From positions 1-21,270 of IMG/VR virus record IMGVR_UViG_3300015360_000225: a stretch of 21,270 nucleotides of DNA. One strand, given 5' to 3'. The notes under the pieces were generated by a model, which saw only the letters and a program-made list of their open reading frames with translations, was not told where the DNA came from and did no database searches. The position numbers and the translations under genes were made by a program. This document shows, piece after piece, positions 1,651 to 20,100 of the stretch; the first letter of the stretch is position 1; each line of letters opens with the position of its first letter. Origin of the DNA: a virus.

Positions 1651-3206
1651 CCACAGTCCCAGATGATGCGATAGCCGTGGGCTAACATGTTTTCCATCTC
1701 TGTCTTTGACGAGTCAAAATTAGAAAGCACCGCTTTTAGTTTATGCTTTTGAAACCTCATTCTCCCGTATCGCTTTGCTAGATCAGTGTAAAAATAACTC
1801 GGAGAAGTAGTAGTTATTTTTGTAAATCCAGCGGCGAGATACCCTCTTCCCACTGAATACCGTCGATCAGCATAAGTTATGAGATCCTTTTCATTTAGCG
1901 CTTTAAGAAGACGGCTTAATCCACCCACCAAGGTCATACCCTTTATCGTGCAAAATCGTAACAACTCTGTCTCATTTTGCTTAAATCTAGACCGCCCCGT
2001 TGAAGCTAGAGCGATCAATTTTCCCTCAAACCTCAACCCAGCTCGTCGATCTGATCTAACACTTCCCTGAAGGTGATGTTCATCTAGAAAACTTTTTTCC
2101 TCTAAAGGAGAGATCTCAAGATCAAGCTGACATTTGCGGGCATAAATGCGCTTTGTAACTCCAAGTTTTGAGCTGATGACGCTCTTCACAATGTCCTTTT
2201 TGGTAAGCCACTCGTCTTCAAATATTTGAATGAGAGTCCATCCCTTAGCTTCGACCATCTCTGTTTTCATGAGATGCTGACGTTTTTCACCCTTATCGGC
2301 CGACGAATGCCAGTACAATCCGTGATATTCGACGCCGATCTTCTTTTCTGGGATAGTGATATCGATCTCGTACGGGGTGATCAGCGATCGATCATTTTCT
2401 TTAACATTAAATCCCAAGCTTTGGATCCAATCGGCAAGTTCGTGTTGAGAAGCAGATCCAACCAGGTGAGGTCTCAAGCATGTTGTACAAGGCGTTAAAA
2501 ACCTCTTCGCTCTCCACTTGAAAGTTTCGCTTGGTAATTCTGCTTCACCGTGAATTGAGCATGAAAATTTTACGACCTTACAGGGATCATCGAACAGCTC
2601 TTGCTTTTGAGAGCTGGGTTTTTGAATCTCATGGACGATAACCCTGTCGGTGAACTCTTGAAAAAAGAGCAAAGCTTTCTCTTGTCGGTGCTTGATTGAT
2701 TCGGTGATTTGAGCTGGATGACTGACTTGGTATCTTTTTTCTAGAGTTTGCTGACACTTTTTAAGATGATCTGCTAATTGCCCTGGATTAGCAACACCGT
2801 ATCGCTTCATCAGGGTTTCTCTCCCCTTGCGGTTTAATTCTCCAGCTCGTGCTCTAGCCTTTTCTCTAGCTAAAGGGGAAGACCCTGCACCGTATTTTGC
2901 GATCATCGTCTTAGTGATCTGTGGAGAAGCTGATCTCATTGAACAACTTCTAGACCTGCAGTGTTCTAGGTAGTGATCACGAAGAAAGAAAGCAGGTTTG
3001 CCGCAGTGTTTGCAATTCGGTCGGGATATCTTGTTCGCGGTTAGAAATACAAGCTCTGGGAAGTTCGACCCTCCCAACGTAGTTCCTATCTTTAAGATTT
3101 CCTGGTAGAGCGCCGTTTCCTTGAACCAAGGTTGACGAATGATCGCGGAGTTTAGCTTGTGATCCTTGCGATAGAGCTGTTCTATAGTATGAATGTCTTG
3201 TCTCAT
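1626..3206 (-). CDS. Free-standing homing endonuclease 1, Vsr-like nuclease with YG repeats
   Basis: 526 aa, a selfish DNA endonuclease. Domains in order: N-terminal zinc finger (C65, C68, C83, C88); about three copies of a repeat centred on K/R-Y-G/Q (Tyr 105, 136, 159), typically T-x-x-x-R-Y-G-V-x-N-P-x-Q; a second zinc module of the DUF723-like type (C216, H219, C240, C243); a Vsr-like nuclease core with E280-I-D282 and E293-Y-H-G-L-Y-W-H300, then H311; and a C-terminal domain containing Y-A-D-R-R (445-449) and G-Y-L-A-A-G-F (455-461). The nuclease core resembles the EDxHD/Vsr-like homing endonucleases. It is a paralogue of the gene at 5158-7080, sharing ARKC after the nuclease and the whole C-terminal domain. 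It lies downstream of the sheath on the same strand, behind a terminator and its own TATAAATA box. No Shine-Dalgarno sequence is visible. DNA target unknown. Confidence 0.85.
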   Translation of the reverse strand: MRQDIHTIEQLYRKDHKLNSAIIRQPWFKETALYQEILKIGTTLGGSNFPELVFLTANKISRPNCKHCGKPAFFLRDHYLEHCRSRSCSMRSASPQITKTMIAKYGAGSSPLAREKARARAGELNRKGRETLMKRYGVANPGQLADHLKKCQQTLEKRYQVSHPAQITESIKHRQEKALLFFQEFTDRVIVHEIQKPSSQKQELFDDPCKVVKFSCSIHGEAELPSETFKWRAKRFLTPCTTCLRPHLVGSASQHELADWIQSLGFNVKENDRSLITPYEIDITIPEKKIGVEYHGLYWHSSADKGEKRQHLMKTEMVEAKGWTLIQIFEDEWLTKKDIVKSVISSKLGVTKRIYARKCQLDLEISPLEEKSFLDEHHLQGSVRSDRRAGLRFEGKLIALASTGRSRFKQNETELLRFCTIKGMTLVGGLSRLLKALNEKDLITYADRRYSVGRGYLAAGFTKITTTSPSYFYTDLAKRYGRMRFQKHKLKAVLSNFDSSKTEMENMLAHGYRIIWDCGTIKFKYR

Positions 3207-3261: not shown

Positions 3262-5067
3262 TTAGAGCGCGGCGCCGGTAGAAACTACTTTTATAGGAAT
3301 ATAAATGAAGTTAATTGACTTGGGTGGCTTAACTGCAATATCTACCCAAAGTTCGTTACGATCAATCCTAACCGGCGTGTTATTCGACTCGTCGCACAGC
3401 ACGAGATAGTCATATAATCCCCTGCGCTGCATGATGTCGTGCAAATAGCCGTCGATCATCGCTTTGATCGACTCACGCGTGATTCTGTCATTCAGTTCGA
3501 ACAGGTAAGCGAAAGCTGCTTTACGAACATCACGCTTGATCTTCTTCAAGAGGCGCGAAACGTTGATACGATCTAGCGCGCTTGCGACAGCTTGTGATGT
3601 TTTGTCACCCAACACCATGATACCACGACCAGGAATGAACGGGATCGGGTTAATGTTCGCCGAGTAATTATACAACACGTCGCGTTGCCCCTGTGTGAGC
3701 GGGGCTGACACGAAGGTGGTAGCGGTTCCTAAAGTACCGGTGACATAACCGATGTCAGAAACCCCTGTAACGATACCACGACGAGGTCCGGCCGGCGGGA
3801 ACCAAACGTTAGCACGATCATCACTGAAACAGATTGTCCGTAAAGCAATACCCGACGAATCAATGAAGCAATCAACACCGTCAAGGTTAGATGCCAAACC
3901 GTGCGCGTAGTAATAACCGATGTCATCACCAGTGCGGCGAGCGATAGAAACTCCCCACGTGGCTGTCTCTTCTGGTGTTTTGTTAAATGGAACGCTGCTG
4001 ATAATATAAGCTTCGTTCTGAATTGCGACGTTTAAATTTTGCAATTCATCAGCGACTTCGTGATAACCAGGACATATGATGATGTTGTACTCAAAAACAT
4101 CAGAGCGAACGTCGGTATTCGAGTTGATTTGGGAAGCTAATGCAGCAACAATTGTTGCTCGTTTGGCTGCATCACCAACACCCAATGGATTAGAGGTAAC
4201 GTTAGCGCTAACTGTAAAGGTGAAATAGTCACCGGCAGCAAACGGAGTACCACCAGCGGTAATCGTGAAAGCGACGATACCACTGTTATACGGTGTACCG
4301 ACGATCGCTTGCGCTTGGTTACCAGATGTTGCTCCAACAACCTTAAAAGCGTCCGAGAGGGTTACGGTTTGAGTACCAGATTGTGAACCGGTGGTATTGA
4401 TTACTATACCACCAGCAGTGGCCGCGATATTGAATGTGTTTGTCAACGGAGTTTTGACGTAGTAAATCGTACCAGCAACGATGCCAGTAGGTAGCGCGCC
4501 GGTGGTGGAAAACTTAATTGGAGTGCCGTCTTGTAAACCGTGAGCTGTCCAAGTGATCACACCTGGGGTGCCAATTGAAATATCCACAGTAGCCGTGGCC
4601 ATCGTCATCGTCCAAAGCTCAGCGACAGCTGTTGCTTGGTTAACGGTTAGAGAGCCGAGTGTACCGTTACCTGTACCGGTGAGAACAGGCGAGGTTGCGA
4701 CATAGGTCGTGACATCTGCATCTGCTAAGTCAACGTTAGCACGAACAACGTATGCATAGCTGATGATACCGAGAGCTTGATTAAGTGCAAACAGGCCGTA
4801 CTCGTTGCGACAGTCACCGTGATTCGCTAAAGCGCCAGTGGTGCGAAAGAATGGAACGCCGTAAGTATCAACAGACGACTTGAGACCAGTGATGGTACGC
4901 ACAACACCGTTTTCGAGGGCACCGGGCGCGGCTGTAACACCGTCAGCCTTAGTCTTGTCAGCACGTGTCGCGATGAAGAATAGCGGAACCGTGGTTGCAG
5001 ACGCCGGGATGTAAAATGATTCATCTGTAATTGTAACTGAAACGCCGGGAGAAACTAGTGTCGCCAC
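3262..5067 (-). CDS. Tail sheath protein, T4 gp18-like, with inserted beta domains
   Basis: 601-aa contractile tail sheath subunit, which would polymerise round the tail tube and contract on infection. The N-terminus M-A-T-L-V-S-P-G-V-S and the C-terminal third (P-F-I-P-G-R-G-I-M-V-L-G-D at 476-488, a helical stretch at 500-550, Y-I-P-I-K at 589-593) are typical of phage sheaths. The start is the GTG at 5067, with AGGAG 8 bases before it; an in-frame ATG at 5157 would add 30 residues unlike any sheath and has no ribosome-binding site. Two beta-rich insertions sit in the middle. Residues 162-237 carry the H-G-L...G-T-P...T-T-G-x-L-P-T-G...Y-Y-V pattern common in phage tail proteins. Residues 239-288 (F-K-V-V-G-x-x-S-G...F-x-x-G-D-x-F-T) recur in the gp6-like and giant proteins. 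These probably decorate the outer surface. The gene is on the opposite strand to the baseplate genes and is bracketed by two homing endonucleases. Confidence 0.92.
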   Translation of the reverse strand: MATLVSPGVSVTITDESFYIPASATTVPLFFIATRADKTKADGVTAAPGALENGVVRTITGLKSSVDTYGVPFFRTTGALANHGDCRNEYGLFALNQALGIISYAYVVRANVDLADADVTTYVATSPVLTGTGNGTLGSLTVNQATAVAELWTMTMATATVDISIGTPGVITWTAHGLQDGTPIKFSTTGALPTGIVAGTIYYVKTPLTNTFNIAATAGGIVINTTGSQSGTQTVTLSDAFKVVGATSGNQAQAIVGTPYNSGIVAFTITAGGTPFAAGDYFTFTVSANVTSNPLGVGDAAKRATIVAALASQINSNTDVRSDVFEYNIIICPGYHEVADELQNLNVAIQNEAYIISSVPFNKTPEETATWGVSIARRTGDDIGYYYAHGLASNLDGVDCFIDSSGIALRTICFSDDRANVWFPPAGPRRGIVTGVSDIGYVTGTLGTATTFVSAPLTQGQRDVLYNYSANINPIPFIPGRGIMVLGDKTSQAVASALDRINVSRLLKKIKRDVRKAAFAYLFELNDRITRESIKAMIDGYLHDIMQRRGLYDYLVLCDESNNTPVRIDRNELWVDIAVKPPKSINFIYIPIKVVSTGAAL

Positions 5068-5075
5068 GATAAATA

Positions 5076-5080
5076 CTCCT
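5076..5080 (-). promoter_or_regulatory. Shine-Dalgarno AGGAG fixing the sheath GTG start
   Basis: The minus strand reads AAAGGAG, then an 8-base spacer, then GTG at 5067. This is the strongest ribosome-binding site in the window and places the sheath start at the GTG rather than at the upstream in-frame ATG at 5157. Confidence 0.8.
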
Positions 5081-5113
5081 TTGTATTGCGATGTGTTAAA
5101 ATCCGCATTGGAA

Positions 5114-5121
5114 TTATTTAC
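5114..5121 (-). promoter_or_regulatory. Late-type promoter box (GTAAATAA) for the tail sheath
   Basis: The minus strand has AGTAAATAA, with the TAAATA core at 5120-5115. It would start transcription near 5108, leaving a leader of about 40 bases containing the AGGAG site. It matches the TAAATA core seen at the other virion genes but is less perfect than TATAAATA. Confidence 0.45.
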
Positions 5122-5144
5122 TTCAAGAAGGACCAAACTACTTA

Positions 5145-5159
5145 AAATGAGCCTCATTT
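5145..5159. repeat. 15-base palindrome at the sheath / endonuclease 2 junction
   Basis: AAATGAG-C-CTCATTT is a perfect 7-bp dyad round one central base. It overlaps the TTG start of endonuclease 2 and lies upstream of the sheath promoter box. It could be an operator-like site or an insertion footprint; the short arms also allow chance. Confidence 0.4.
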
Positions 5160-7080
5160 GGACAGAATAGTCGAACTTAAAGTCTCTTATCTTGATTCAA
5201 AGGGTAGGCTTAACCCATCAAAACGGAACACCGGCGAACGAAGAGATTTCATTCTCTCCCTCTTTCCCGAACACGAATCCCTTAAAGAGATCATTTTTTG
5301 CGTTCTCAACGACGTCGTAGCACGTCCTATTTGCTCGGTATGCTGTGGACGAGTCAATTTCAACACAGGGGGATATCGAAAAACCTGCAGCCTTAAGTGT
5401 GGGGCGAGAGATCCCGACCGCAAAAGTAAAACTCACAAAACGATTCTAGAGCGTTATGACGGAGTTCACTACGCCACTAGACCTGAACACAAGGAGTTAC
5501 TGATCAACCGTTACGGGAAGATTCCCGGAGCGTACGGCACAGCGGAGCATAAAGCCTCAGTTCAGAAGAAGTTTGGGGTTGACAACGTCTTTCAGAGTGA
5601 GGAGATCAAAACAAAGATAAAAGAAACAATGGTCGAACGCCACGGGGCTAAAAATCCACAACAAGTTCCAGTGATCAAGGCTAAAACCGAAAAAACAAAC
5701 CTCGAGCGCTACGGACATAAAACTCCGTTTGAATCTCCTCAGGTCAGGGAGAAGACTACAGCGACTCACCTTGAGCGTTACGGGGTTGAAAATCCCCAAC
5801 AAAATCTTGAGATAAGAAAGCGAACCGAGAAGACAACACAAAATCGCTATAATGGGATCGGATGGGGATCGAAAGTTTTGCTAGAAAAATCTCTTAAAAC
5901 TAATTTAGAGAAACATGGTGGAACTGGATTAGGCTCAAAAATTCTTGACTCGAGGATCAAAGCTACGATGCTATCTAAGTACGGAGCGACTCATCCGGAG
6001 CATGTTCCAGCGATTAAGAAAAGAAGGATTGAGAGCTTTAGACGTCAGTTCATTGAAAATAATCTGCGCTTTAAATTAGAACTGATTAGAATTAACCAAG
6101 ATTTGTATCCATTATGGAGACCTGAGAGCTATTCAGGTTCTCAAGGAAATTACGAGTGGAGACATATTTGCGGTTACATTTTCATCTCTGGCTTTATCAA
6201 CGGTAATATTCCAATGTGTCCGCGGTGCTTCACTGCGTCAAAACCTCACCAGCTCTTGATCGACAAGCTTAAGGAACGTAACCCTGATCTCAAGATGATC
6301 GTGAACTGTCGCTCGATCATCACTCCGCTTGAGCTAGACATCTACCTACCGGATTATAAAGTCGCAGTCGAGATCAACGGGTGTTGGTGGCATCAGGATG
6401 TCAATGACGGTAAGAATAAGTTATTGACGAAGACAGAAAAGTGTGCTACTCTCGGAATTAGATTGCTTCACCTTTGGGACTTTGAGGTCGAGAACAAGTT
6501 GTCTCTAGTATGTTCGATGATCGAGTCAAAGCTTGGTTTAACCAAGCGTCGAATCTTTGCAAGAAAGTGTGAGGTTAAAGAGCTCAGCTGGGGTGAGGCT
6601 AAAGTTTTTTTAGTTAATAATCACCTTGATGGTGCAGGACAGACAGGAAAAGCGATCGGACTATTTTTCGGAACCGAATTGGTTAGTGTAATCACATTCG
6701 GAAGAGAGCGTTATAAACACACAAACAACCTTGAACTTTATCGAGCTTGTTCGGCGATAGACACAACTGTGATTGGTGGGTTAAGCAAGCTGTTAGCACA
6801 GATCGAACGTTCTATAGTAACGTTCGCCGATCGCCGAATCTCAACAGGAGAGGGATATCTAAGCATAGGGTTTAAGGTTCTCTATCTGACTACACCAGGC
6901 TACTTTTACTATCACCTAAAAACTAAAAGTAGGGTATCAAGAATTCAAGCTCAAAAGCATAAGCTTTCAGCTTGGTTGCCTATCTTTGACGGGTCCCTGA
7001 CAGAAACTGAAAATATGATTCTTAACGGATACGTTAAACTTAGAGACTGCGGTCATGTGAAGCTAGGTAAACAGATGTAA
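5158..7080 (+). CDS. Free-standing homing endonuclease 2, Vsr-like nuclease with long 23-residue repeat array
   Basis: 640-aa paralogue of the endonuclease at 1626-3206. Domains in order: zinc finger (C59, C62, C77, C81); an array of about nine R-Y-G-x-x-N-P-Q-Q units (aromatic or His centres near residues 100, 119, 139, 162, 186, 209, 231, 253, 275), at a 22-23 residue period for the last seven; a short Cys pair (C354, C357); a Vsr-like nuclease core with E392-L-D394 and E405-I-N-G-C-W-W-H412; and a C-terminal domain with F-A-D-R-R (556-560) and G-Y-L-S-I-G-F. The extra repeats account for most of the length difference from its paralogue. The start is uncertain: TTG at 5158 is the first in-frame candidate after a stop at 5143 and has no good ribosome-binding site. 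The next downstream gene begins 72 bases after its stop. It sits between the divergent sheath and 502-aa structural genes. Confidence 0.85.
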   Translation: MDRIVELKVSYLDSKGRLNPSKRNTGERRDFILSLFPEHESLKEIIFCVLNDVVARPICSVCCGRVNFNTGGYRKTCSLKCGARDPDRKSKTHKTILERYDGVHYATRPEHKELLINRYGKIPGAYGTAEHKASVQKKFGVDNVFQSEEIKTKIKETMVERHGAKNPQQVPVIKAKTEKTNLERYGHKTPFESPQVREKTTATHLERYGVENPQQNLEIRKRTEKTTQNRYNGIGWGSKVLLEKSLKTNLEKHGGTGLGSKILDSRIKATMLSKYGATHPEHVPAIKKRRIESFRRQFIENNLRFKLELIRINQDLYPLWRPESYSGSQGNYEWRHICGYIFISGFINGNIPMCPRCFTASKPHQLLIDKLKERNPDLKMIVNCRSIITPLELDIYLPDYKVAVEINGCWWHQDVNDGKNKLLTKTEKCATLGIRLLHLWDFEVENKLSLVCSMIESKLGLTKRRIFARKCEVKELSWGEAKVFLVNNHLDGAGQTGKAIGLFFGTELVSVITFGRERYKHTNNLELYRACSAIDTTVIGGLSKLLAQIERSIVTFADRRISTGEGYLSIGFKVLYLTTPGYFYYHLKTKSRVSRIQAQKHKLSAWLPIFDGSLTETENMILNGYVKLRDCGHVKLGKQM

Positions 7081-7114
7081 CTCATGAAAAAGGGTAGTAG
7101 AGTTCTCTAGCAAT

Positions 7115-7150
7115 TTCTAGTCTCATAAATAATTGTTTCGGAGACTAGGA
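7115..7150 (+). promoter_or_regulatory. Hairpin enclosing a late promoter and sequestering a ribosome-binding site
   Basis: CTAGTCTC (7117-7124) pairs with GAGACTAG (7141-7148); a G-U and a U-A pair extend the stem to 10 pairs over 7115-7124 and 7141-7150. The 16-base loop carries ATAAATA (7125-7131), a T4-type late box. The right arm holds both possible Shine-Dalgarno elements of the ATG at 7153: GGAG (7140-7143, spacing 9) and AGGA. RNA started from the late box begins near 7138 and lacks the left arm, so its ribosome site is open. RNA read through from endonuclease 2 would fold and hide it. T4 uses this arrangement at genes e and soc and at I-TevI. Confidence 0.6.
7125..7131 (+). promoter_or_regulatory. 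Late-type promoter box ATAAATA for the 502-aa structural gene
   Basis: ATAAATA lies 21 bases before the ATG at 7153, enough for a short leader with GGAG. It has the best spacing of all the TAAATA boxes in the window for a conventional late promoter plus ribosome-binding site. Confidence 0.6.
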
Positions 7151-7152
7151 TC

Positions 7153-8661
7153 ATGCCAAGAGGAGTAGTTGACTCAAGAAATTTACTGTGGGCTGAAGGC
7201 GAGCAGGTAGTTCTTGATTTTAATAGAACAACGGCTACGTCGACAACGGCAGGGATCACCTGGACGATTCCCGTTGGATCCGTATATGATGGAATCCTGA
7301 TCACAGCGTCTATCAAGGAGATTAATCCCTCTAATCTTCCTACAGACGGAATTATTTACAACGCATCAACTGATCTCACCGCCCCTGTTAGCATGATTAA
7401 CAATGCGCAGGTCATAGTGGCTCTTTACGGAAATCAAACGACCACCTCCGCAGCTCTAACTGGTCTTGATCCGGCCCAAGTTTATTTTTTATCTGCGCAC
7501 ATCATCTCAAACGTGCGCACGTATTACACGTTAGGTGTTAGGTCTTATCCAGAGTCGATAGCTTCTAGTGTTTTCGCCGGTGAAATTCCTAGATCATTCT
7601 CTCCACCAATTAGTCCAGTCATAGGTCAAGTTTACTTTGACGAGACACAGAATCTTCTTTTCTCGTGGGATGGTACAACTTGGCTTACGACTTCAACTAA
7701 TAACGTCCTTACCGGTAGTATTGATCCTGTGTCTCCCTTTACCGGATACCCAACCGGTTACCCAACGGCCGGAAGTTACTTCTACAATACTCGGCTCAAG
7801 ATGCTCAAATCTTGGAATGGAGCTGGGTGGATTTCTGCTGAAACAGAGTTTGGAATCCCCTCGTATCAAAAAGCAGGAGTAGGCACCGATCTTACATATT
7901 CTCCTCGAGCTAACCTAATTGACATTCTTAAGAAGCAACTAGGTTATCCTCAAGTTTGCGTTGAATTGACCGAAGACCAGTTTAACATCGCGATCGAAAA
8001 CGCGCTTCAAGAGATCCGTCGTCGTACCGATGTGGCATACTTTAAGCAATATTTTTTCATGCAGATTCATGCCAACCAAGATCTTTACTATCTCAATGAT
8101 CCTTTACTCCGAACGGATGGAATCGTTGGCATCCAAAAGATTCATCGCTTAAATACATTCGGATTAATGAACTTCGCACCTGACAACATTTACACCCAGC
8201 AATTTCTCAATAGCTTTTATGCCCCGGGAGTGGGTTATGATCTTGTTTCGATCTTCGAAGTTCAACAGCTCACGAAAGTTTACTCCCAGATTTTCGCTAG
8301 CGAAATCGCTTTTAACTGGCGTGAGGCAACTCGCGAGCTAAAGATCTACAAGCGCTTCGGTGCTCCTGAGAAAGTGCTTGTTGAAACTACTTGCGAAAAA
8401 CCAGAGCAAGAATTACTTCAAGATCGCTGGACACAACAATGGATCCAGGCATGGGCCGAATCTGAGCTACTGTTCATTCTAGCCCATATTCGTGGTAAGT
8501 TTGCGTCACTACCTGGACCAGGTGGTGGCTTGCAACTTAATGCAGATTCCCTCATTTCGCAAGCCACCGTGATTCAAGAGAATTGTCTCCGGGAGATAAG
8601 AGATATGGAAGTCGGGCAACAGGGATCGGACAATTTTCACATGCCCTTCACGTTCGGCTAA
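7153..8661 (+). CDS. Virion structural protein with Fn3-like N-terminus and W-N-G repeats
   Basis: 502 aa, three visible regions. Residues 20-133 are beta-rich and resemble a fibronectin-III-like fold (G-L-D-P-A-Q-V-Y-F-L-S-A-H near 104-116). Residues 158-177 and 207-226 are two copies of the G-x-x-Y-F-x-x-x-x-x-x-L-x-S-W-D/N-G-x-x-W motif found in phage fibre and tail proteins, separated by a G-Y-P-T-G-Y-P-T stretch. Residues 253-502 form a mixed alpha/beta domain with V-E-L-T-E-D-Q-F (270-277), a Trp-rich helix (426-436) and L-P-G-P-G-G-G-L-Q-L-N-A-D (453-465). That last domain recalls uncharacterised structural proteins of T4-like marine and jumbo myoviruses, but a specific role (neck, connector or baseplate) cannot be fixed. 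It is the first virion gene of the rightward block, controlled by the hairpin and late box just upstream. Confidence 0.7.
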   Translation: MPRGVVDSRNLLWAEGEQVVLDFNRTTATSTTAGITWTIPVGSVYDGILITASIKEINPSNLPTDGIIYNASTDLTAPVSMINNAQVIVALYGNQTTTSAALTGLDPAQVYFLSAHIISNVRTYYTLGVRSYPESIASSVFAGEIPRSFSPPISPVIGQVYFDETQNLLFSWDGTTWLTTSTNNVLTGSIDPVSPFTGYPTGYPTAGSYFYNTRLKMLKSWNGAGWISAETEFGIPSYQKAGVGTDLTYSPRANLIDILKKQLGYPQVCVELTEDQFNIAIENALQEIRRRTDVAYFKQYFFMQIHANQDLYYLNDPLLRTDGIVGIQKIHRLNTFGLMNFAPDNIYTQQFLNSFYAPGVGYDLVSIFEVQQLTKVYSQIFASEIAFNWREATRELKIYKRFGAPEKVLVETTCEKPEQELLQDRWTQQWIQAWAESELLFILAHIRGKFASLPGPGGGLQLNADSLISQATVIQENCLREIRDMEVGQQGSDNFHMPFTFG

Positions 8662-8678
8662 GAAAAACTATCAATGTC

Positions 8679-9104
8679 ATGAAAATAGTCGAAATCATTA
8701 CTAGGCCAGAGTTTGATGTCCGCTACGTCACCAACCCTAAGCCGGGACAAAAATTTATCTCTAATGACCGCCCAGATGCTGTCAAGGAGATCCAAAGCGT
8801 GCTCAAACGTGAGTACACGTTCCCCGCCGGAAAACCGGGTCGTCTTCTTGCTCTGGGTGGTGAGGACATTCTGGGTGGGCTTAACTATGACATTGATAAT
8901 GACACGATGGTGATTCATCATCTTGGAAGCCTTAAGCCAGGCATCGGCACGAAATTGATTAAGCAGGTCGAAGAAATCGCCAGAAAAGCAAGGTTGACCA
9001 AAATCATGTTCTTTTCTTACGGCGGCCCTGAGAACGAGCTTTATAAGAAGCTAGGATATGTTGAAACTGGGTTGAATGATAACCAATTTGAGAAAACCCT
9101 ATGA
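8679..9104 (+). CDS. GNAT-family N-acetyltransferase
   Basis: 141 aa from ATG at 8679. The GNAT acetyl-CoA-binding segment is S-L-K-P-G-I-G-T-K-L-I at 84-94 (the usual Arg or Gln three residues before the first Gly is Leu 85), followed by a helix, a beta strand (K-I-M-F-F-S) and the typical L-Y-K-K-L-G-Y-V-E-T-G at 121-131. It would acetylate an amine on a small molecule or protein; the substrate is unknown. The ATG is preferred to upstream in-frame codons inside the structural gene because the opening M-K-I-V-E-I matches the openings of the next two genes (M-K-L-T-E-I, M-K-L-S-Q-L). No Shine-Dalgarno sequence is seen in the 17-base gap after the structural gene. Its stop overlaps the next start as ATGA (9101-9104), implying translational coupling. 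Confidence 0.75.
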   Translation: MKIVEIITRPEFDVRYVTNPKPGQKFISNDRPDAVKEIQSVLKREYTFPAGKPGRLLALGGEDILGGLNYDIDNDTMVIHHLGSLKPGIGTKLIKQVEEIARKARLTKIMFFSYGGPENELYKKLGYVETGLNDNQFEKTL

Positions 9105-9649
9105 AGCTTACCGAGATTAGAATCGAAAGTAGTCATCAAGATAAAAGTTTTTCCGATATGCAAAAGTTTGTTTTATCACCTGAGTATCTTAACGATGGCA
9201 AACCCTATCCAATGGATCTTACTCTTGACAACCTCCATCTTACATCTTTAAAAGGATTTCCAAGAGTTGTTTTGGGTTCTATAGATTTAGGTCATAATAG
9301 TCTCGAAGATTGGGAGGGTGGTCCTAAGGAAGTTCACGGAAATCTTTATCTTCATAACAATGATTTCTTAACGTTTGAGGGAATTTTTGATCATCTTAAG
9401 CTTGTTAATGGTTTAATGTATCTTTGGTCATCCTCACAGCATCCTCTATCAAATCCACTGAAGAGGAATGTTTTAGGACTTTTGAGGATTGAAAAGTTGA
9501 AAGGTCTTACTACCTCTAAATATCCTTTTCCAAAATGGGCTCAAATCGTTAATAAGCACTTACAGAGCACAATGAACACTCGAGAGAGAATGTACGCGTG
9601 TCAAGATGAGTTAGAAACCGAGGGACTTAGTGAGTACGCACAACTATGA
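9101..9649 (+). CDS. Leucine-rich-repeat-like phage protein, copy A
   Basis: 182 aa. Residues 40-108 contain short repeats of the pattern L-x-S-L-x-G-x-P-x-x-V-x-G and L-x-x-N-x-L-x-x-x-x-x-G-P-x-x-V-x-G, resembling irregular leucine-rich repeats, with L-Y-L-H-N-N at 82-87. The C-terminus has V-L-G-L-L-R-I-E-K-L-K-G-L (124-136) and ends Y-A-C-Q-D-E-L...G-L-S-E-Y-A-Q-L (165-182), a signature I associate with a widespread uncharacterised family in large phages and prophages. Function unknown; the repeats suggest protein-protein binding. It is a tandem paralogue of the next gene, with recognisable similarity even at the DNA level. It overlaps the GNAT gene before it and copy B after it, each by four bases (ATGA), so the three genes form one tightly coupled unit. 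Confidence 0.75.
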   Translation: MKLTEIRIESSHQDKSFSDMQKFVLSPEYLNDGKPYPMDLTLDNLHLTSLKGFPRVVLGSIDLGHNSLEDWEGGPKEVHGNLYLHNNDFLTFEGIFDHLKLVNGLMYLWSSSQHPLSNPLKRNVLGLLRIEKLKGLTTSKYPFPKWAQIVNKHLQSTMNTRERMYACQDELETEGLSEYAQL

Positions 9650-10167
9650 AGTTAAGTCAACTTCGAGAGCAAGACGAGCTGTGCGTAGCTGACCTTGGTC
9701 TAGCAGAATTCAGCAACGTTAGACGCTGGCACGGGGACGTTAATCTTTCTGGAGAAAAATTAACTTCACTGCGTGGATCTCCTAGCATAATCATTGGAGA
9801 TTTTAATGTTAAGAACAATTTTTTGACAGATTGGTCTTACGGTCCCAGTGAAGTTCACGGTGATGTCTATTTTGACAATAATTCTTTCACCAACTTCCAC
9901 AACATTCATGAGCACTTAAAGGTTGTAAAGGGAGTGATTTGGTTTAGTTCTCCTAATAAAATTAAGAGTCATGTGCTTGGTTTTCTCATGATTGAAGGGT
10001 TGCTTAATCTTAATGTAAGTAATACTACTATCTCTTCTAGCTGGGTTCATGTCATTGAAAAACACCTAACCATAATTGTACATACTCCTAAAGATCGAAG
10101 AAGTCGTCTTTATGATTGTCAACAGGCCTTGATTGATGCTGAATTAGACGAGTTTGCTCAACTGTGA
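9646..10167 (+). CDS. Leucine-rich-repeat-like phage protein, copy B
   Basis: 173 aa, paralogue of the preceding gene. Shared blocks are L-T-S-L-R-G-S-P (39-46), the G-P-S-E-V-H-G-D-V-Y-F-D-N-N segment (66-79), H-V-L-G-F-L-M-I-E-G-L (109-119), and the C-terminal Y-D-C-Q-Q-A-L-I-D-A-E-L-D-E-F-A-Q-L (156-173). No enzymatic motif is visible; function unknown. It starts inside the stop of copy A (ATGA at 9646-9649) and ends 18 bases before the gp25-like gene. The GNAT and repeat genes together look like an accessory insertion between structural genes. Confidence 0.75.
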   Translation: MKLSQLREQDELCVADLGLAEFSNVRRWHGDVNLSGEKLTSLRGSPSIIIGDFNVKNNFLTDWSYGPSEVHGDVYFDNNSFTNFHNIHEHLKVVKGVIWFSSPNKIKSHVLGFLMIEGLLNLNVSNTTISSSWVHVIEKHLTIIVHTPKDRRSRLYDCQQALIDAELDEFAQL

Positions 10168-10175
10168 GGGTGGTG

Positions 10176-10181
10176 TAAATA
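10176..10181 (+). promoter_or_regulatory. TAAATA box 4 bases before the gp25-like start
   Basis: GTAAATA followed by TCTT and the ATG at 10186. It is either a late promoter giving a leaderless message or an initiation-associated motif. No Shine-Dalgarno sequence lies at normal distance, although GAGGGTGG sits about 20 bases upstream. Confidence 0.4.
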
Positions 10182-10185
10182 TCTT

Positions 10186-10557
10186 ATGACAAAATATTAC
10201 AAGGGATTCAGTACCCGCAATTATGAGGAAACAGGTCGACCCTTCGAGATTTATAACGTAGATCTTGTCGAGGAGGATTTACTCAACGAGATTTTTACAA
10301 TCGTTGGTGATAGACTAGATCTTCCCAATTTTGGCACCAGGGTCCGGTTGCTTGAATTTGAGCTTAACGATCTCTATACACAGGACATCCTTCGTGAGGA
10401 TATGCTCAAGGTTTTTGCCAATGACCCTCGTGTGCAAGTTCTCAACTTCCAGATCATCCCTTATGTTGATCGCTACATGTTAGTTGCAATCGCAAAGCTT
10501 CTCTACGTAGAATTTCAAGTGACCAAAGATTTAAAAATCGAGGTTACTAACCGATGA
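10186..10557 (+). CDS. 25: Baseplate wedge subunit, gp25-like
   Basis: 123 aa, close to T4 gp25 (132 aa) and the GPW/gp25 family (PF04965). Residues 41-60 hold the family hallmark, G-D-R-L-D-L-P-N-F-G-T-R-V-R-L-L-E-F-E-L (compare GER..P.FGT.L...LFE), followed by a helix, D-P-R-V-Q-V-L-N-F (80-88), and a final beta region. In contractile tails this small protein sits in the baseplate wedge at the first sheath ring and helps start sheath assembly. It lies directly before the gp6-like gene, as in T4 and its relatives, with an 18-base gap. A TAAATA box is 4 bases before its ATG. Confidence 0.88.
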   Translation: MTKYYKGFSTRNYEETGRPFEIYNVDLVEEDLLNEIFTIVGDRLDLPNFGTRVRLLEFELNDLYTQDILREDMLKVFANDPRVQVLNFQIIPYVDRYMLVAIAKLLYVEFQVTKDLKIEVTNR

Positions 10558-10565
10558 GCAATAAC

Positions 10566-10571
10566 TAAATA
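10566..10571 (+). promoter_or_regulatory. TAAATA box 4 bases before the gp6-like start
   Basis: CTAAATA followed by GATC and the ATG at 10576, in the 18-base gap after the gp25-like gene. Geometry is the same as at the gp25-like gene, and again no Shine-Dalgarno sequence is present. Confidence 0.4.
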
Positions 10572-10575
10572 GATC

Positions 10576-13500
10576 ATGGCTATCAATCCTCTTCTTCAAT
10601 CTGCCGAGAGCTGGGAAAAAGTATACCAGGCTTTTGATAAGATAAATTTCGTCGCGTATGATTTTAATGCGGTTAAGCAATCGCTGATCGACTATCTCAA
10701 GTTTTACTACCCTGAGAACTTCAACGACTACATCGAATCTAGCTCGATGATTGCGATCATTTCTGCGTTCGCTTATACTGTTGAACTGTTGGCTTATCGA
10801 GTAGATCTCTCGGTCCACGAAACAACAATCGCAACGGCTGATCGTAAGCAAAGCATCTTGCGGCAGGCTAAGCTAGTTTCTTACACAGCCACCAGAAATC
10901 TTCCTCTTCGGGGACTAGCTAAGATAACCTCTGTAACGATTTCAGAGGACGTTCGTGATTCTCAGGGAACAACTCTTGCTAATAGGGTCATCAAATGGAA
11001 TGACCCGAGCAACTCACTATGGAAAGAGCAATTTTTTATTACTCTCAATAAGGTTCTAACCTACCCGTTTGGCAATCCTCTCAAATCTTTTCAATTAGAT
11101 GACACTGTTTTCCAGCAATATGAGCTCAAAAATCTTCTTGAAACTGAGAGTTCAAAAAGTACCTTTAAGAACGGAGTGCTCAAAAATAAGGTAAAGATCA
11201 ACGGACAAAGTGTTGACTTTGAGATGGTTCCAGCTGACATCGATGTAGATGGAATCTTTGAACGTGATCCTAACTTTGACGCTTACTTTAACGTGTTATA
11301 CGCCGATGATGGTTTCGGTGACGGTTCTGATACGACAGGCTTTATGTTTTTTATGAAGCAAGGATCGCTCTCAAGACTTAATTATGTTTTTGACACTCCA
11401 CAACCAAACAAGATTCTCGAGATCGCACTCAACAACATCAATGACGTTGATGTTTGGGTGCAGAAGATCGACGAGAGTGGCAAAATCACCGAGTCTTGGG
11501 ACAAGGTAGCTAACATTCAAGCCGAAAATTTAATCTTTAACTCAATCAAGTCAACTAAAAAGTATGAGGTAGAAACTCTCGAAAATGATCAGATTCGTTT
11601 GATTTTTGGTGATGGGGATTTCGGTGGAGAGATTCCCACAGGAATCTTTAACATCTGGGCAAGACAATCTACTAGTGGAGAGTTGTCTGTTTCTAAAAGC
11701 GCTGTAATCAATGAAACAGTGACGTTCATTTACATCTCTAAACAAGGAAGTCAGGAGAGTTGCACTTTGACGTACTCGTTGACGTCAGCACTTCAAAACT
11801 CTGCTCCTACAGAGGACATCGAACATATTCGGGCCTCAGCTCCCTCAGTTTACTTTTCACAAAATCGTATGGTTAATGGAGAGGACTACAACAGTTTTCC
11901 ACTGAAAGATCCGTCGATTCTTAGACTTAAGTCAATCAACAGAACTTTCGCTGGTCAACCCAAGCACCTCGCTTGGAATGATGCTTCTGGAGTTTATCAA
12001 AACATTAAATTGTTCGGTAATGATTTGAGAATGTATCGTGACACGACTTCTAAAGGTGAGATCAACACCACATCCCCGCGTAATTTGATCGATGAAATCA
12101 TCGAACCAATGCTCTCCCATCCCGGTATGTATAATTTGATTACCTACGTTTTCAACCAGGCCGGCAGCCCGTTGAATCTTGCGTTTATCAGACCAAGAAC
12201 TAAATTTCTAGAAAACGTCGATCAAGTGATTGGCTTGATTACCGTTCAGGAAAAAACAGAGATTCAAGGAGTTCTTGATAGACATTGGTACGGTGAGCCT
12301 GATGAGATAGTTTTGCTTGATAGTAGTTTAACAACAGCTGGTACACCAAAAACAGTTTATGCAGTAGTCAACAAAGATACTGATGAACGCATCTATGACG
12401 CAAATATGAAGATGGTGACCAAGGATACAACGACTGGTGTTTACACCGTTGTCAATACCCCTGGCAACATCTCAGGAATTCAAGAAGCTTCGGCACGCCA
12501 AACAAAGTTTGGGATCAAACTTGTGCCTGATCGTCCATTCTCCTCGGCCCTTCGCATCAACTCAGTTGGAACTACTCCCATTCCTAACTCTGACTTTTTA
12601 AGTAGTCTTGATATAGATCAACCTACCGCTAAGGCCGAAACTTACACCGTTGAGATCACGGGGACTGATGGGACGTTTGCTGTGCATGGGTCGTTATCTG
12701 GTGAGCAAGCAGGTGGTGTGATCAATGAAGACTATGATAATGGGATAATCAGTTTCAAAATTGGGTTCCCTCCCGCAGTTAGCACGGCAATTGTTATCGG
12801 AGATGCTTTTATTATCAACGTTGTATTTTCAGCCGGCACATATACCCCAGTTCTTTATAAGAAAAATTTAACAGGCCGCTTTGAGATCATCGAAGAAGCT
12901 TTGATATCGGGGGCTGAATCTCTTCCTTTCAATTCTACTGATAGTATTGCGTCGTGGTTCATTATTATCGAGAGGGTAGATAACTCAAACGGACAGTTCG
13001 ATTATTGGAAAATCACTCGCCGAGATTTCTCTGTGATCATTGAAAGCCCAACTACTAATTTCTGGGTGAACAATGAGGTACTCTTAATTGATCCTGATAC
13101 GCGCAAACAAGTTCGTGATGTTGTGCGTTTGCTTCAGTCAAACCTTAATGCAGCTAGAACACAAGCGATCGGTGCAGATGCTGTTTATGACGTTATCACA
13201 GATGTAAAATACTCAGATGGAACAACTAATCCACACGCATTAGCTGTTACCCCAAAAGATCTCACTCTTGAATTTCTATCATTCATCACGAATAGTGATT
13301 ACATTTATTTTTACAAGAATCCAGCTTCTGGGCGACTTGCCCCTCTTCCAGCAACCGCTTATCTACAAGCACTAACCTATATCGATAACGTATCAGGGAA
13401 TTATGTTCGTAAACAAGGACGCTCGGATCTTTATTTCATGTGGCAGCATTTTACACCCCGCGAAAACTTAATTGATCCATCAACTAGCAATATTCATGAC

Positions 13501-14040
13501 ATGTACATCTTAACACGCGGGTACTACAGTGCTGTGATTAGGTATTTGAGAGGGATTGACATAAACGCCCCAACACCCCCTAGCTCATTAGAGTTACGGA
13601 GCACTTATCGTAAGACGCTTGAGAAAAAGATGCTTTCTGACACGGTAGTAATGCATAGTGGCCAGATCAAGCTTCTCTTCGGGTCTCTAGCGATTCCAGA
13701 ACTTCGCGCTTCGATCAAAATCGTCGGTGATCCTGCCGCTAAGCTTTCGGCTGATCAAATCAGAGTACGAGTGCTTCAACTGATCGATAACTATTTTCAG
13801 ATTGCTAACTGGGACTTCGGCAAAGAATTTTTTGCCACCCAGATGATCACAGTGATCCAGCAAAAACTGGCCGGTGAGGTTTCATCAGTAGTTTTAGTAC
13901 CGAGGTTTCCGCTAAACTATTTTGGAGATCTTTTTCACCTGCGTAGCAATCCTGATGAAATCTTTTTGTCATGTGCTACTCTTGATGATATCGAGGTCGT
14001 TAGCAATCTCGACCGCTTGACGCTCAAGCAAAAACTCTAA
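10576..14040 (+). CDS. 6: Baseplate wedge subunit, gp6-like (J-type family), enlarged
   Basis: 1154 aa; T4 gp6 is 660 aa. The N-terminus (residues about 20-100) is the family's helical domain, with F-N-D-Y-I-E-S-S-S-M-I-A-I-I-S-A-F-A-Y near 48-66. A central block at 431-470 contains M-V-N-G-E-D-Y-N-S-F-P-L and N-R-T-F-A-G-Q, like gp6 of cyanophages and other T4 relatives. The C-terminal wedge domain (about 1065-1140) has L-I-D-N-Y-F and S-S-V-V-L-V-P. Between the central and C-terminal parts lie several hundred extra residues that include a beta-rich module (699-749: F-A-V-H-G-S-L-S-G...G-D-A-F) also found in the sheath and giant proteins. In T4, gp6 dimers form the continuous inner ring of the baseplate. 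Starts at ATG 10576, 18 bases after the gp25-like stop. Confidence 0.88.
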   Translation: MAINPLLQSAESWEKVYQAFDKINFVAYDFNAVKQSLIDYLKFYYPENFNDYIESSSMIAIISAFAYTVELLAYRVDLSVHETTIATADRKQSILRQAKLVSYTATRNLPLRGLAKITSVTISEDVRDSQGTTLANRVIKWNDPSNSLWKEQFFITLNKVLTYPFGNPLKSFQLDDTVFQQYELKNLLETESSKSTFKNGVLKNKVKINGQSVDFEMVPADIDVDGIFERDPNFDAYFNVLYADDGFGDGSDTTGFMFFMKQGSLSRLNYVFDTPQPNKILEIALNNINDVDVWVQKIDESGKITESWDKVANIQAENLIFNSIKSTKKYEVETLENDQIRLIFGDGDFGGEIPTGIFNIWARQSTSGELSVSKSAVINETVTFIYISKQGSQESCTLTYSLTSALQNSAPTEDIEHIRASAPSVYFSQNRMVNGEDYNSFPLKDPSILRLKSINRTFAGQPKHLAWNDASGVYQNIKLFGNDLRMYRDTTSKGEINTTSPRNLIDEIIEPMLSHPGMYNLITYVFNQAGSPLNLAFIRPRTKFLENVDQVIGLITVQEKTEIQGVLDRHWYGEPDEIVLLDSSLTTAGTPKTVYAVVNKDTDERIYDANMKMVTKDTTTGVYTVVNTPGNISGIQEASARQTKFGIKLVPDRPFSSALRINSVGTTPIPNSDFLSSLDIDQPTAKAETYTVEITGTDGTFAVHGSLSGEQAGGVINEDYDNGIISFKIGFPPAVSTAIVIGDAFIINVVFSAGTYTPVLYKKNLTGRFEIIEEALISGAESLPFNSTDSIASWFIIIERVDNSNGQFDYWKITRRDFSVIIESPTTNFWVNNEVLLIDPDTRKQVRDVVRLLQSNLNAARTQAIGADAVYDVITDVKYSDGTTNPHALAVTPKDLTLEFLSFITNSDYIYFYKNPASGRLAPLPATAYLQALTYIDNVSGNYVRKQGRSDLYFMWQHFTPRENLIDPSTSNIHDMYILTRGYYSAVIRYLRGIDINAPTPPSSLELRSTYRKTLEKKMLSDTVVMHSGQIKLLFGSLAIPELRASIKIVGDPAAKLSADQIRVRVLQLIDNYFQIANWDFGKEFFATQMITVIQQKLAGEVSSVVLVPRFPLNYFGDLFHLRSNPDEIFLSCATLDDIEVVSNLDRLTLKQKL

Positions 14041-14042
14041 AC

Positions 14043-14061
14043 GGCCCAAACTTTTTGGGTC
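14043..14061 (+). terminator. Small hairpin after the gp6-like gene
   Basis: CCCAAA (14045-14050) pairs with TTTGGG (14054-14059) across a 3-base loop, extendable by a G-U and a G-C pair. It lies 2 bases after the stop codon. The following bases are only moderately T-rich, so it may be a weak terminator or an mRNA-stabilising hairpin. Confidence 0.4.
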
Positions 14062-14074
14062 TGACTTGTTTGTT

Positions 14075-14097
14075 GAAAGAGGCTTAAAACCTCTTTC
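14075..14097 (+). terminator. Second hairpin in the gp6-giant gene gap
   Basis: A perfect 8-bp inverted repeat, GAAAGAGG (14075-14082) and CCTCTTTC (14090-14097), with a 7-base loop. No T-run follows it on the plus strand, so it is not a classic terminator. With the preceding hairpin and the ATAAATA box at 14115 it fills the 86-base gap, suggesting a processing or partial-termination point before a separately started transcript. Confidence 0.35.
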
Positions 14098-14113
14098 TGG
14101 TGAAGTGTAGAAA

Positions 14114-14121
14114 CATAAATA
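14114..14121 (+). promoter_or_regulatory. Late-type promoter box CATAAATA before the giant gene
   Basis: CATAAATA ends 5 bases before the ATG at 14127, differing from the T4 consensus TATAAATA only in the first base. As at the gp25-like, gp6-like and endonuclease 1 genes, the start would fall at or next to the ATG, and no Shine-Dalgarno sequence is present. Confidence 0.5.
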
Positions 14122-14126
14122 CACCT

Positions 14127-17100
14127 ATGGCTTCTTCACTAGATCTCAACAAACTTCTCCCTGATCGCTATCGCGATAAGACCCAAGAAACTCTCTTTAA
14201 AAATCTCTTCAATAGATTCTTGACGAAAGACGACTCGGTTCCACTTTTCGGCTTTGTCGGTCCTCGCAGTGAACTATCACCGGGGGATGTTAAGATCACC
14301 GAGCCTAACATCGAGCGCCAGCTAAATCAGCTCACACCAATGTTTTACACCGAGCACGCCTCTGAGAAGCGAACTTACTCGTGGCCAGATCTGGTACAAA
14401 AGCTTCTCCTTCTAGGAGTAAGCTTTACTTCGATCAACGAATGGTTCCAATCGAAGTCGTTTAACTTCGTGCCACCAATTGACCTTGACAAATTCTGTAA
14501 CTTTAATGAGTATTTTTGGATCGGTCCATGGTTGAAATCAGCTCCTACTCTTCCCTATTCAACATTGGGAATTCCTGACATTCTCTTTGTTAATGATGAG
14601 TTGAACAAATCAAATCCAACCAGCATTCCAGAATACTATGTGATCAAGCGAAGCGGGCTCAGTGGAACAACCCCTACTCCTCCGAACCCTTTGATTGATA
14701 TAAGTTGGTCCTCATGGGCTCTAGTTAACCTTTGGGTTCACCGTGAAGACTTAATCAACTTTTTGATTGCTCACCCCGGCACAGTTTCATTTGATGAATT
14801 AACACAGGCTACTCGCCCAATCATCGAGTATTTTGATACTTTACGATTGAGCACATATAAGTCGTTCCCTCCAATCCCAGGTAGCGACGGAGTTCCAGCT
14901 GAGGCTGGTATTCTTGATCGTGTTATCAAAATCAGACCCAATCAACCTCCGCTTTTTGATCTCTACCGACGTGACAATAAACACGCTGGAATGACTAGCG
15001 CAATCTTTTATTACGTCGAGGGAAGTCAATATCCTATTGACTCGATAATCGGTCGTCGTGTTGCTACTGACGTTAATGCTGACTTCATTTTCGAACACGC
15101 CCTCGGTGGCGACACCGATGAAATTCTTTTCTATCGGTTATGGAATGGGTCTTCATGGAATCCTTACACAATTTGGAGATCAGGCCCTCTCGCCGGTCCT
15201 ACTTACAAGAAATTTGATACTGCAGGTACTCTGATCAATCAAGACAAATTCAACAATTACAAAAATTATTATTGGACAGGGGGAACGCTTCCCTCAACCT
15301 CTCTCCCATCGTTTAATTCGATTGGTTTGCCTGAATACACAGTCATTGAGCCTGGGGGTATATCAAGCTGGTCTATTCACAACTATTGGAAGTCAATTTC
15401 TGAGCTTAGGCGCAGCGATCTTCGCCTTTATATCCAAGCAGAAAGACCAATCATTGAGTTTAACAAGTTTCTTGAGGTTGAGCTTATCATTCCTGTCAAG
15501 ACTACATTGGGGCAACTGCCAACTTTCAAGATGTATCGTTGTCTCCCCCACTCAAACACCTACGTTCAACTCATTGATGGAGCTGCACCTGACCTTAATG
15601 ACGCTTATCTCGGAGGAGCTTTATTTGCTCGAATAGAAGATTTAGTTGCTAGTCCCGCTATCTATAGCAATGCTGATCTGCTCTCTCAAACAATCACTCT
15701 AGATGAAAATAATTACCTTCAGAATCTCTTCACAGGGCAATATATCCCAACTAAAGATGGAGTTACCTACGGGTATCTAGCTAAATTTAGTTCGTTCGCT
15801 GGCACGGGCGATGGAACGGTGGCCAATATCACTGTAGCCAACATCGCTACTCCGCAGGTTATCACATTAACGTGGGCCGCCGGAGTTTTTAAGGTGGTCG
15901 GAACGGTGACAGGAAATGCTCCTGATCTGATTAGTTTCAACACCCTGTACACTCTAAATGGAGTCTCCTTCAGTGTAACGTTAGGCTCTATTCCCTTCGT
16001 TGATGGTGACAAATTCACCATTGAAAACAAGAGCTACATCTTTCAAGCGGCAAACTTGTATGTTAAAATTGATGGAGCTTACCGAACTTTAACAGCTCCT
16101 TCACAGATTATAAGTGAGACAGTCTCCACAATCGTTGTTAATGGCGATCCGACTCTGCAAGATGGAACTTGGACTGTTCCCCCACAACTTGAGTGGAACG
16201 TTCTAAATGAAACCAGATCACAAATTAAGCAAGGTGATCTTTACTTCCATCTCTTGACGATCATCGAGGCACAACCTGATTTGATCGGTTTTTCCACTGG
16301 GCAAAATAATTGGAGATCACTTACTCCCAACTTTGGCCTTGGAGGTTTGATCAAACAACATGACGGACTTCCTGCTCTGTGGGTGTCGTTGATGCTCCAG
16401 GAGGGAGTAACGATGATGTCGTTGCTTGACTTCGCTAGAGAGAGTTACGAGCGCCTCTTTAGCAGCATCAAAACTTTTATCGAGGAACGTGTACCAGAAA
16501 TGCTCGCTACCGATCTTGTTATGTTGTCGACTGGTGACAGCATCGATCCTATCATAGTGTCCGAATTTAAAAAGTATTTGTCTAATGTGTCAATGGTCAA
16601 TACCGCAACCGAGTCAACTGTTGATGACAATCTTGCTCGAATTTTTTATGATACAACGTCATCACTTGATAACTTAGTTGTGACTCTGCCCTACTTGGGT
16701 CTTGTTCCAAAGGTCTTGCCGAAAAAGACGTGGGATCTCGAGTTAGATTATCCAGTTTTGGTACATCACGACGGTCACCGCACAGCTCTCGCCGACGTGT
16801 CACCTGATTTTTCTAAAGTGATCGTTAATAAGTTTTTCTCACGCTCTCACGGTCAAGAGACACAAGGGTCTATCACCGGAGGCAATTATCCTCTTCGTCC
16901 GTTTAGGGGACAGTACTGGTTCAAAACTTCCACCGGCGAGCTTTTCTATTATAAGGTCGCTTCAGACACCGCTGAACGCCCGAATAATGCTATAGCCGGA
17001 GATTATTCTTATGACAGGTTAAACAATACTATCTGGAGATTCACCTCGGTGTGGGTTAATCTAGGCAATGATGAAGTTGCACTAGCTGCCCCCTGGATAA

Positions 17101-20100
17101 AGGTCGATTTTGGTTTGATAGAGCAAAATTTGACGCTAGCAATAGAAACTGAGCTTTATGAGCATTGTCCGACATTGTTAAACACCCTTGATACTCTTGA
17201 TAACAGTCGGAGCACATTAGAAGCTAATTCGAACTTTACTGTTTACATGCGAAAGGAGCTAGAGCGGTTTGGGGTGAAGTATAATGTTGAAAACGTGTAC
17301 ACGTCTCTATATGACTCAAGCAACCCCTTCACCTGGAACTACGGGAGCGTGATCCCCCCTGGGGCTACGGTAGCTCATGAAACCTGGCAAGAGATCTATC
17401 GTGAAGTTTACGATACTCCACGGCCAGATCTCGAGCCATGGTTTGTCGCCGGTTATGCCGACGAGGCGACCTTCATCTTTGACGCGATAGATGATGGATC
17501 ATTACCGGTTGGTACCACTAACTTTGACCCTGCATCAATGTGGGCGATGGTTTCGGCGTTTGTCCATGCTAAATTAATCTTTCTCGGACGTCCTAATAAG
17601 CTTTCGGTATTAGTCGCTTCGGGAACTCTTCTTCCACCCTATGCTCTTGATGGTGGGGGAGGTGAAAGTTTGATTACTTCACTTCCAACTGGGCTCAATA
17701 ACGTTTTCACCTACGGACAGCTTGGTCCGACTGAACTTTATTGGACAAGAACAATCGATCATCTTTACTCGATTCAAAAGGTTTATTTCAAGGTTAATCC
17801 GTTGCACTACGTTCAACAGACATGGGGTGAAAAACTCATGTCTCTCAATGGTTACGGCATGAACTCTTACCTTGGCCGTAAGCAGCGTCCGAAAGACTTT
17901 GCGCTTCATGGTTCCGTGTTGGCTGATCTCTCACAGTCATCGTGGATGACATCGACGATGCTTCAAATTTCTGATCACAATCTTGATTATACGATCACCT
18001 GCGTCAGTCGAGCTTTGAGCACAAATCCGATTTTTAAAGTAACTGAAGCGACGACAGAGGGAGTAGTAGGATTCATCACTAATAATACATTTTCTGACGC
18101 TTTCATCTCTGTGTCTTTTATCTCTGGACTATTAAGAGGGTTTTTCTGGGGTGATACCTTTAAGTTGCATCTTGATGCTGATACGGCTCAGATGACGGTA
18201 ACTTTTACCCCTAACCCTTACTTTAACGCTGAAGGTTTTAACCAGCTTTATATTCAGTATGGTCGCTTTTACGGCCAAGACACAGAAATCTCTCTGAATC
18301 GTAGTCTATTTCTAGATTGGGTTCCCAAGCTAGGATACCGCTTCTCTGGGATGGTTAACACTGACACCTTAAAGATAGTCGCTGCGGATTCTAGCACAAT
18401 CGATCAAAGCACGTACGATATCTTGATCAAGGAAAATAAATTTTACAAAAGCTCTTGGTTGAACGCTCTTCGAATTCAGTTGGTGCAAATCGGAACTACC
18501 CTCTTTGATGGTGGGATTAACGTACCAGCTCTTGGTACTAGTGGCACACCTGGAGAAAATTGGATTTTTAGAGTTGATAATTATAATCCTACACGTCCAA
18601 CACTTACCTGGTATGACACTGACTTATCAGGAACTCCTCAAACTTTTACAGCGCTCAATTCAGCTAGAAGCAATTTTGAGTGGAAACGTTATCCATCGCT
18701 GACTGAAAAGCGCTCGTTCGCCGCGCCGTTCCTAATTACCGGGCTGCAAAATGTTGTTAATTTTCTTTTCGGTTACTCTGATTATCTCTATGATCAAGGT
18801 TGGAGATTCAACGACCAAGACAATCCTGTTTTAGATCCTACTACCGGCAGGATGCTAAGCTATCAGTTTTTGATCGAGCGCTTTCTAAACCAACAATTTA
18901 GCGGAGTTAAGGCAGGAACCTCTTTTATTGTCAATCCGTTTGCTAGAAAAGTTTGGTACGTAACTCCAAGAGGCGCGGTCGCCAATCTGTTTGACAAGAT
19001 CGGCGCCGAGCAAGAAACGGTTTGCACTGTGCTAACGGCTGACAAGCGTCCACTTCAACGTGGTGAGTTACGAGTTTTCAGGGATGATAATATCACTGAA
19101 TTGGTGTTTGATCGACCTGTCCACACTCTTCATCTTCTGACTAGTGAATATGAGCACGTAGCTCTCTTTGACGATTACTCTATCTCAACGCTCATTTATG
19201 ACCCATTTCTTGGTCAAAAAATCACCGAGATTTTCTTAAAAGGAGACAAACAACCAGTCTTTACTGGACGTTTAGACTTCGGAGGCCATTTCTTACTAGG
19301 TGGTGAGATGAAAGCTAACATCGAAAGCTCAATCTCGCGAATCGCTACGCTTTATGACACAACGTCCAGAAGGGTTAATTCCCCAGAAACGGAACGAGCA
19401 AGAGCTCTGTTGGGTTTTCAAAAGAAAAATTATTTCGCTCTACGTGGCTCCTCTGATAATACCGAGTTTAGATTCTGGCAAGGGTTGATCGCTAATAAAG
19501 GAACTAACTTTTCGATTAACGCTTTCACAAATTCAGCCAAATTCAAAACGGCTAAGTTCGACGAGTACTGGGCCTATAAGCTAGTCGAATACGGGGATGC
19601 TCGGGCGGTTTCGCGCCCGGAAATGAGGGTTGAGCCAGGAGAAATTTACGAGCGGACCAATTATCTCTTCGTCGAGGATGATGAACGTAATTTTATTGCT
19701 GCTGAAACTGATTACGGTTATGAGTTACCTGGGGTTGAAAACTTTAATCCACAAGGAGCTGTCGTTGTGGCCCCTGGAGACGAAAGTCGATGGTTTTCGT
19801 ACGGTGATCTTAACAGCCTTAAGTATCTTGAGGCTGACCTGATTGCTGAACGCACGATCGTGGCTACTAGTCTCGAGGACTATCAATTGATTCTCGACTC
19901 GGCAGGGAATCCTGTCAAAGCTGATCGCTTTGAAGTAGTCGATGTCAATCTTACCGTTAATGACTCGACGATTCTCGACACTAGTACCGAAAAGGTTCAC
20001 CGTGAGTACGGTGATTACACAACTGGTAGTAATCCTGCGACGTTCGCAGCCTCTAAATTTGTCAGAATCAATTGTTCAGGGATTCAAATTACTCACGCTT

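Follow-up and report, generated by a model that had tools for sequence, protein, structure and literature searches.

The window, that is, the whole 21,270-base stretch of DNA analysed here, is a viral contig of a jumbo myophage whose kin, judged by the sheath and gp6-like proteins, include XacN1, RaK2, 121Q and PA5oct. It encodes a tail sheath protein of 601 aa (3262..5067, minus strand; PF17482, E = 6e-13; phrog_10581 tail sheath, E = 3e-153), a gp6-like baseplate wedge protein of 1154 aa (10576..14040, plus strand; phrog_10646, E = 1e-242) and a giant protein whose open reading frame runs past the contig end (14100..21269, plus strand; phrog_10938, E = 2.7e-89) and whose PHROGs label, virion structural protein, is no more specific than that. 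The sheath gene starts with GTG at 5067, with which the residue numbering of the original prediction agrees. Homing endonuclease genes lie on either side of it (1626-3206, minus strand; 5158-7080, plus strand); both belong to phrog_3339, are homologous to each other (41% identity over 290 residues) and could promote recombination around the sheath gene. An Ad2-like neck protein (7153-8661, plus strand) has a weak fn3-like stretch close to its N-terminus and short repeated segments common to several virion families. Two adjacent small proteins of similar appearance (9101-9649 and 9646-10167, plus strand) are encoded between the neck and baseplate genes, and neither was matched in Pfam and PHROG searches. 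On the minus strand, a SprT-like protein (1027-1572) exceeds the Pfam cut-off, and a small protein (615-992) resembles, below the match threshold, ADP-ribosyltransferases of polyvalent proteins (E = 0.006).

According to the original prediction, one β-rich pattern (F-x-V-x-G-x-x-(S/T)-G, then Y-x-x-G/N-G-(I/V)-x-F, then G-D-x-F) recurs at sheath residues 239-288 (4204-4353), gp6-like residues 699-749 (12670-12822) and giant-protein residues 587-633 (15885-16025), and we confirmed that the translations carry it at these sites. Only the C-terminal two thirds of the unit had been noticed, and its length of about 50 residues was an underestimate: the module comprises about 78 residues and starts 20-30 residues earlier, at G-T-G-N-G-T-L or an equivalent, which is followed by E-x-W-T-x-T, F-x-V-x-G-S-x-S-G, Y-x-N-G-x-x-x-F-x-I and G-D-x-F, in this order. 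An HMM made from proteins of six unrelated phages, with the window sequences excluded (mod0), recognized the sheath copy (54.3 bits; i-E 1.5e-17), the gp6 copy at residues ~675-751 (12598..12828, plus strand; 37.7 bits; i-E 2.3e-11) and the giant-protein copy (15795..16034, plus strand; 42.0 bits; i-E 2.4e-12), which places all three in the GD-F module family. The top score was about 10 bits with 2000 shuffles per segment and 7.2 bits for unrelated ORFs (4845 ORFs from 95 sequences), and mod0 recognized none of the XacN1 orthologues.

Profile-profile comparison of the three segments, each represented by an alignment of sheath, gp6 or giant copies only, bore out the proposed relationship, with probabilities of 98.6% for gp6-sheath, 98.7% for giant-sheath and 92.1% for gp6-giant. 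When separate profiles were built for sheath, gp6, giant, siphophage and tube copies, the mutual probabilities were 92-99.9%, against a median of 0.2% and a maximum of 31% for 111 control profile pairs; the maximum itself came from a probable extra degenerate module copy of the giant protein. Short, low-complexity β sequences might resemble one another by chance, and the gp6 segment gave no match to the giant segment in a direct BLASTP comparison, so that the link between these two rests on profiles. The shuffles, background ORFs and profile controls nevertheless rule out chance resemblance, to which we assign a practically negligible probability. These computations show that all three segments belong to a single ~78-residue β-domain family. 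We found no Pfam, NCBIfam or PHROG model covering the module by itself, a PHROG scan with the short module segments alone gave no matches, and a PDB sequence search with the module returned nothing significant.

The sheath copy is interrupted. Its N-terminal part (TGTGNGTLGSLTVNQATAVAELWTMTMAT; 4594..4680, minus strand; mod0/modA1 HMM positions 1-33) is separated from its C-terminal part (4204..4356, minus strand; mod0 i-E 1.5e-17) by a nested second domain of about 79 aa (4357..4593, minus strand), and because of this foreign insert only the C-terminal part had been noticed at first. The limits of these parts, like those of the nested parts in the other split sheaths described below, were set from HMM alignments and inspection by eye. 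The insert is similar to stretches of proteins from tail-fibre and connector families (phrog_7765, 1.4e-12; phrog_9370 tail fiber, 2e-10; phrog_967, 7e-6); it had no match in Pfam, the carbohydrate-binding family CBM5/12 included. Two related sheaths (L001 and L002) lack the nested domain, and the N-terminal part of the module is intact there and in others.

Comparison of sheaths revealed a slot of variable content between the anchors YVVRA and LG-x-NDAAKR. In L001, L002 and nine other distinct sheaths, it spans 103 residues and holds one intact module, while nine distinct sheaths have a tandem pair, and a single module split after profile position ~33 is found in the window, L095, L096 and L172 sheaths. 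The L095 insert is a CBM5/12 domain (CBM_5_12, PF02839; 28.9 bits in the whole protein and 36.1 bits for the insert alone, with a Pfam cut-off of 26.2) and is thus predicted to bind sugar. The inserts of L096 and L172 match a third module (E = 1.8e-11 and 4.4e-6 with a profile from other sheaths), which is itself split by a fourth (5e-7 and 8e-5). Unrelated domains occupy the slot in other sheaths of the set. One loop of the sheath module has repeatedly received other domains.

The gp6 and giant copies examined showed no obvious nested binding domain. The gp6 copy is found at the same site in L015-L020, and the giant copy in L015, L017 and L018; the gp6 proteins of L021 and XacN1 and the remaining gp6 relatives had no module at the search sensitivity used, and a scan of viral contigs with the giant protein found no relative. 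A probable further copy, degenerate, lies downstream in the giant protein (17988..18170, plus strand). It scored -0.1 bits with the single-sequence HMM and 84.5% in hhalign against the family profile, with 60 columns in register, when a four-phage alignment was used from which clear inserts had been removed by hand.

The module is widely distributed. A tblastn search of phage records with the sheath segment matched 11 records at up to 59% identity (E = 2e-7), mostly siphophages of Stenotrophomonas, Xanthomonas and Pseudomonas; among the annotated ones, QH16, Suso, DLP_3 and Bhz54 have the gene for the matched protein immediately after that for the tape measure. A single pattern retrieved 48 viral loci, among them a Phage_tube_2 tail-tube protein in which the module occurs three times (L138) and one for tail assembly (L149). 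Eight jumbo-phage records, picked as known or likely carriers, contain 3-11 module matches each (a split copy being scored as two) in sheath, gp6, giant and further virion proteins, and the outgroup XacN1 contains none. Taken together, the hosts comprise sheath, gp6, giant, tail-tube, tail-tip, tail assembly and cement-like proteins, and the occurrence of the module is thus promiscuous. Each of the large proteins seen in L125 and L137 has four to seven copies, whether complete or partial.

In a 38-row tree, the gp6 copies formed one clade (support 88/97), as did the giant copies (95/82), so that each of the two kept its place in the host protein and diverged by vertical descent. Sheath and siphophage copies were intermixed, and many forks stayed open in this tree of a short alignment. 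The original prediction that the module had been copied or recruited into otherwise unrelated tail proteins holds as far as homology is concerned, but recent copying among the three genes is disfavoured, since the gp6 and the giant copies cluster by host protein. That the copies arose recently by duplication from one gene of this phage to another would fit the presence of at least three copies within one genome; the grouping of the gp6 and giant copies by host protein rather than by phage, and the lack of pairwise BLASTP similarity between the gp6 and giant copies, make it very improbable. The tree favours old, separate recruitments instead.

An AlphaFold2 model of the sheath had a mean pLDDT of 65.6, with the nested insert below 50, and matched the solved T4-like sheath 9ev2 with Z 27.8, so that the conserved sheath core was recovered in the structure as well as by PF17482. 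The gp6 model matched T4 gp6 (5iv5, E = 7.6e-10), and its module copy, modelled within the whole protein, consists of β-strands with a pLDDT of ~83. Strands fall at matching motif positions in the sheath and gp6 models, within the limits of the sheath model, whose confidence is low. The nearest structures to the gp6 copy were the hook-junction proteins FlgL (5zj0, Z 6.7 over 79 residues) and FlgK (4ut1, Z 5.6), together with the β domain of Wzc (9r62, Z 6.2); Wzc and FlgL were also listed, weakly, for the sheath model. No sequence relation to these proteins was found, and matches at Z below 8 may reflect a common arrangement only.

MAFFT alignment placed the VVRA anchor of the sheath slot at residues 79-83 of T4 gp18 and the post-slot anchor at ~328, so that the slot extends from residue 83 to ~330, the second boundary being approximate. 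It spans domain II (88-97, 189-345) and the domain I nested within it (98-188), both of which are solvent-exposed in T4 gp18, domain I protruding without inter-subunit contacts (PMC3004832). By analogy, the sheath module, which replaces domains I-II by position, is probably displayed outward on every subunit. T4 gp18 domain I had also seemed, by eye, a candidate member of the GYxxG module of some sheaths; this was not supported, with 0.4% in hhalign and an HMM score of 3.3 bits against shuffles of up to 7.7 bits.

How the module came to these sites and what it does there can be brought together in one reading, towards which we lean mildly: old separate recruitments, outward display on the sheath, and a role as spacer or decoration with weak glycan contacts. 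In the jumbo-phage clade, the module would have entered an insertion-tolerant site of the sheath, gp6-like wedge and giant proteins in separate, ancient events, and the copies would have been inherited at those sites since. The loop after its second strand tolerates insertion, and other small virion domains, CBM5/12 among them, have entered it in one phage or another. The module would then act as a stable outward spacer or decoration that makes, alone or via a nested domain, many weak contacts with host glycans. It has the look of an interchangeable decoration on the outside of the phage tail, and a part in host binding, which the original prediction had raised together with capsule interaction and inter-protein contacts, is a plausible hypothesis; the best hint is the carbohydrate-binding domain nested in the sheath of one relative (L095), outside the window. 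A stronger version, in which the loop has been selected as an insertion socket for swappable ligand-binding domains (CBM5/12, tail-fibre-type and others), we consider rather unlikely; if true, the contractile sheath itself would carry a changeable and highly multivalent adhesive coat.

A rival reading is a structural cement, in which the module would stabilize the sheath, wedge and giant protein through subunit contacts and the nested domains would be incidental. The additional domain of the phage 812 sheath has been proposed to stabilize the sheath disk, and extra sheath domains in general have been proposed as possible cement (PMC9230969); copies in several of a virion's large tail proteins would also fit. 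However, T4 domain I has no inter-subunit contacts in the corresponding place (PMC3004832), and the slot content varies freely among related phages (single, double, split or unrelated), which is hard to square with a conserved interface, and we rate this role, too, as rather unlikely. It is more doubtful still that the module is a neutral, promiscuous filler, spread by recombination and persisting since it folds well and does no harm. Its very wide spread over unrelated hosts, its tandem duplication and nesting, and the homing endonuclease genes on both sides of the window sheath gene agree with such a history, but the orthologous gp6 and giant sites have been kept in all close relatives examined despite strong divergence.

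Extra β domains in sheaths and promiscuous Ig-like virion domains are already known (PMC9230969, PMC10684548, PMC8718954). Phage Ig-like domains are likewise small β domains on or in unrelated head and tail proteins and, in the account of Fraser et al. 2006 as cited in PMC9230969 and PMC10684548, are thought to be horizontally exchanged and to bind surface sugars weakly. Unlike them, the module additionally hosts nested insertions, and its region gave no match to an Ig, Big or fn3 family of Pfam, either in the proteins of the window or in its other hosts. The additional sheath domains of types 2 and 3, for which adhesion or stability has been proposed (PMC9230969), and domains I-II of T4 gp18 occupy the same place in the chain and are β-rich, and nested topology was already known in T4 gp18 (PMC3004832). 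The module differs from these in being a sequence family common to gp6, giant and unrelated siphophage proteins and in having nested content that differs between related phages, as with the CBM5/12 domain (PF02839) of the L095 sheath and the different domain in the window. Our literature search, limited and incomplete in coverage, found no description of the module or of nested-domain exchange in it. The module apparently belongs, as a family missing from the catalogues, to the known class of promiscuous domains that decorate virions; its loop, prone to insertion, is unusual. As a widespread domain defined by sequence, it connects proteins of the sheath, wedge, tail tube and tail tip in siphophages and jumbo myophages. 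The proposed adhesive role of extra sheath domains lends itself to a direct test on the natural series of sheaths, in which the module has no insert, is in tandem or carries one of three kinds of nested domain. Among the relatives, L104 and L107 encode a large tail protein with many copies of another short repeat, G-T-T-D-F-T-x-I-G-A, in addition to a weak module copy.
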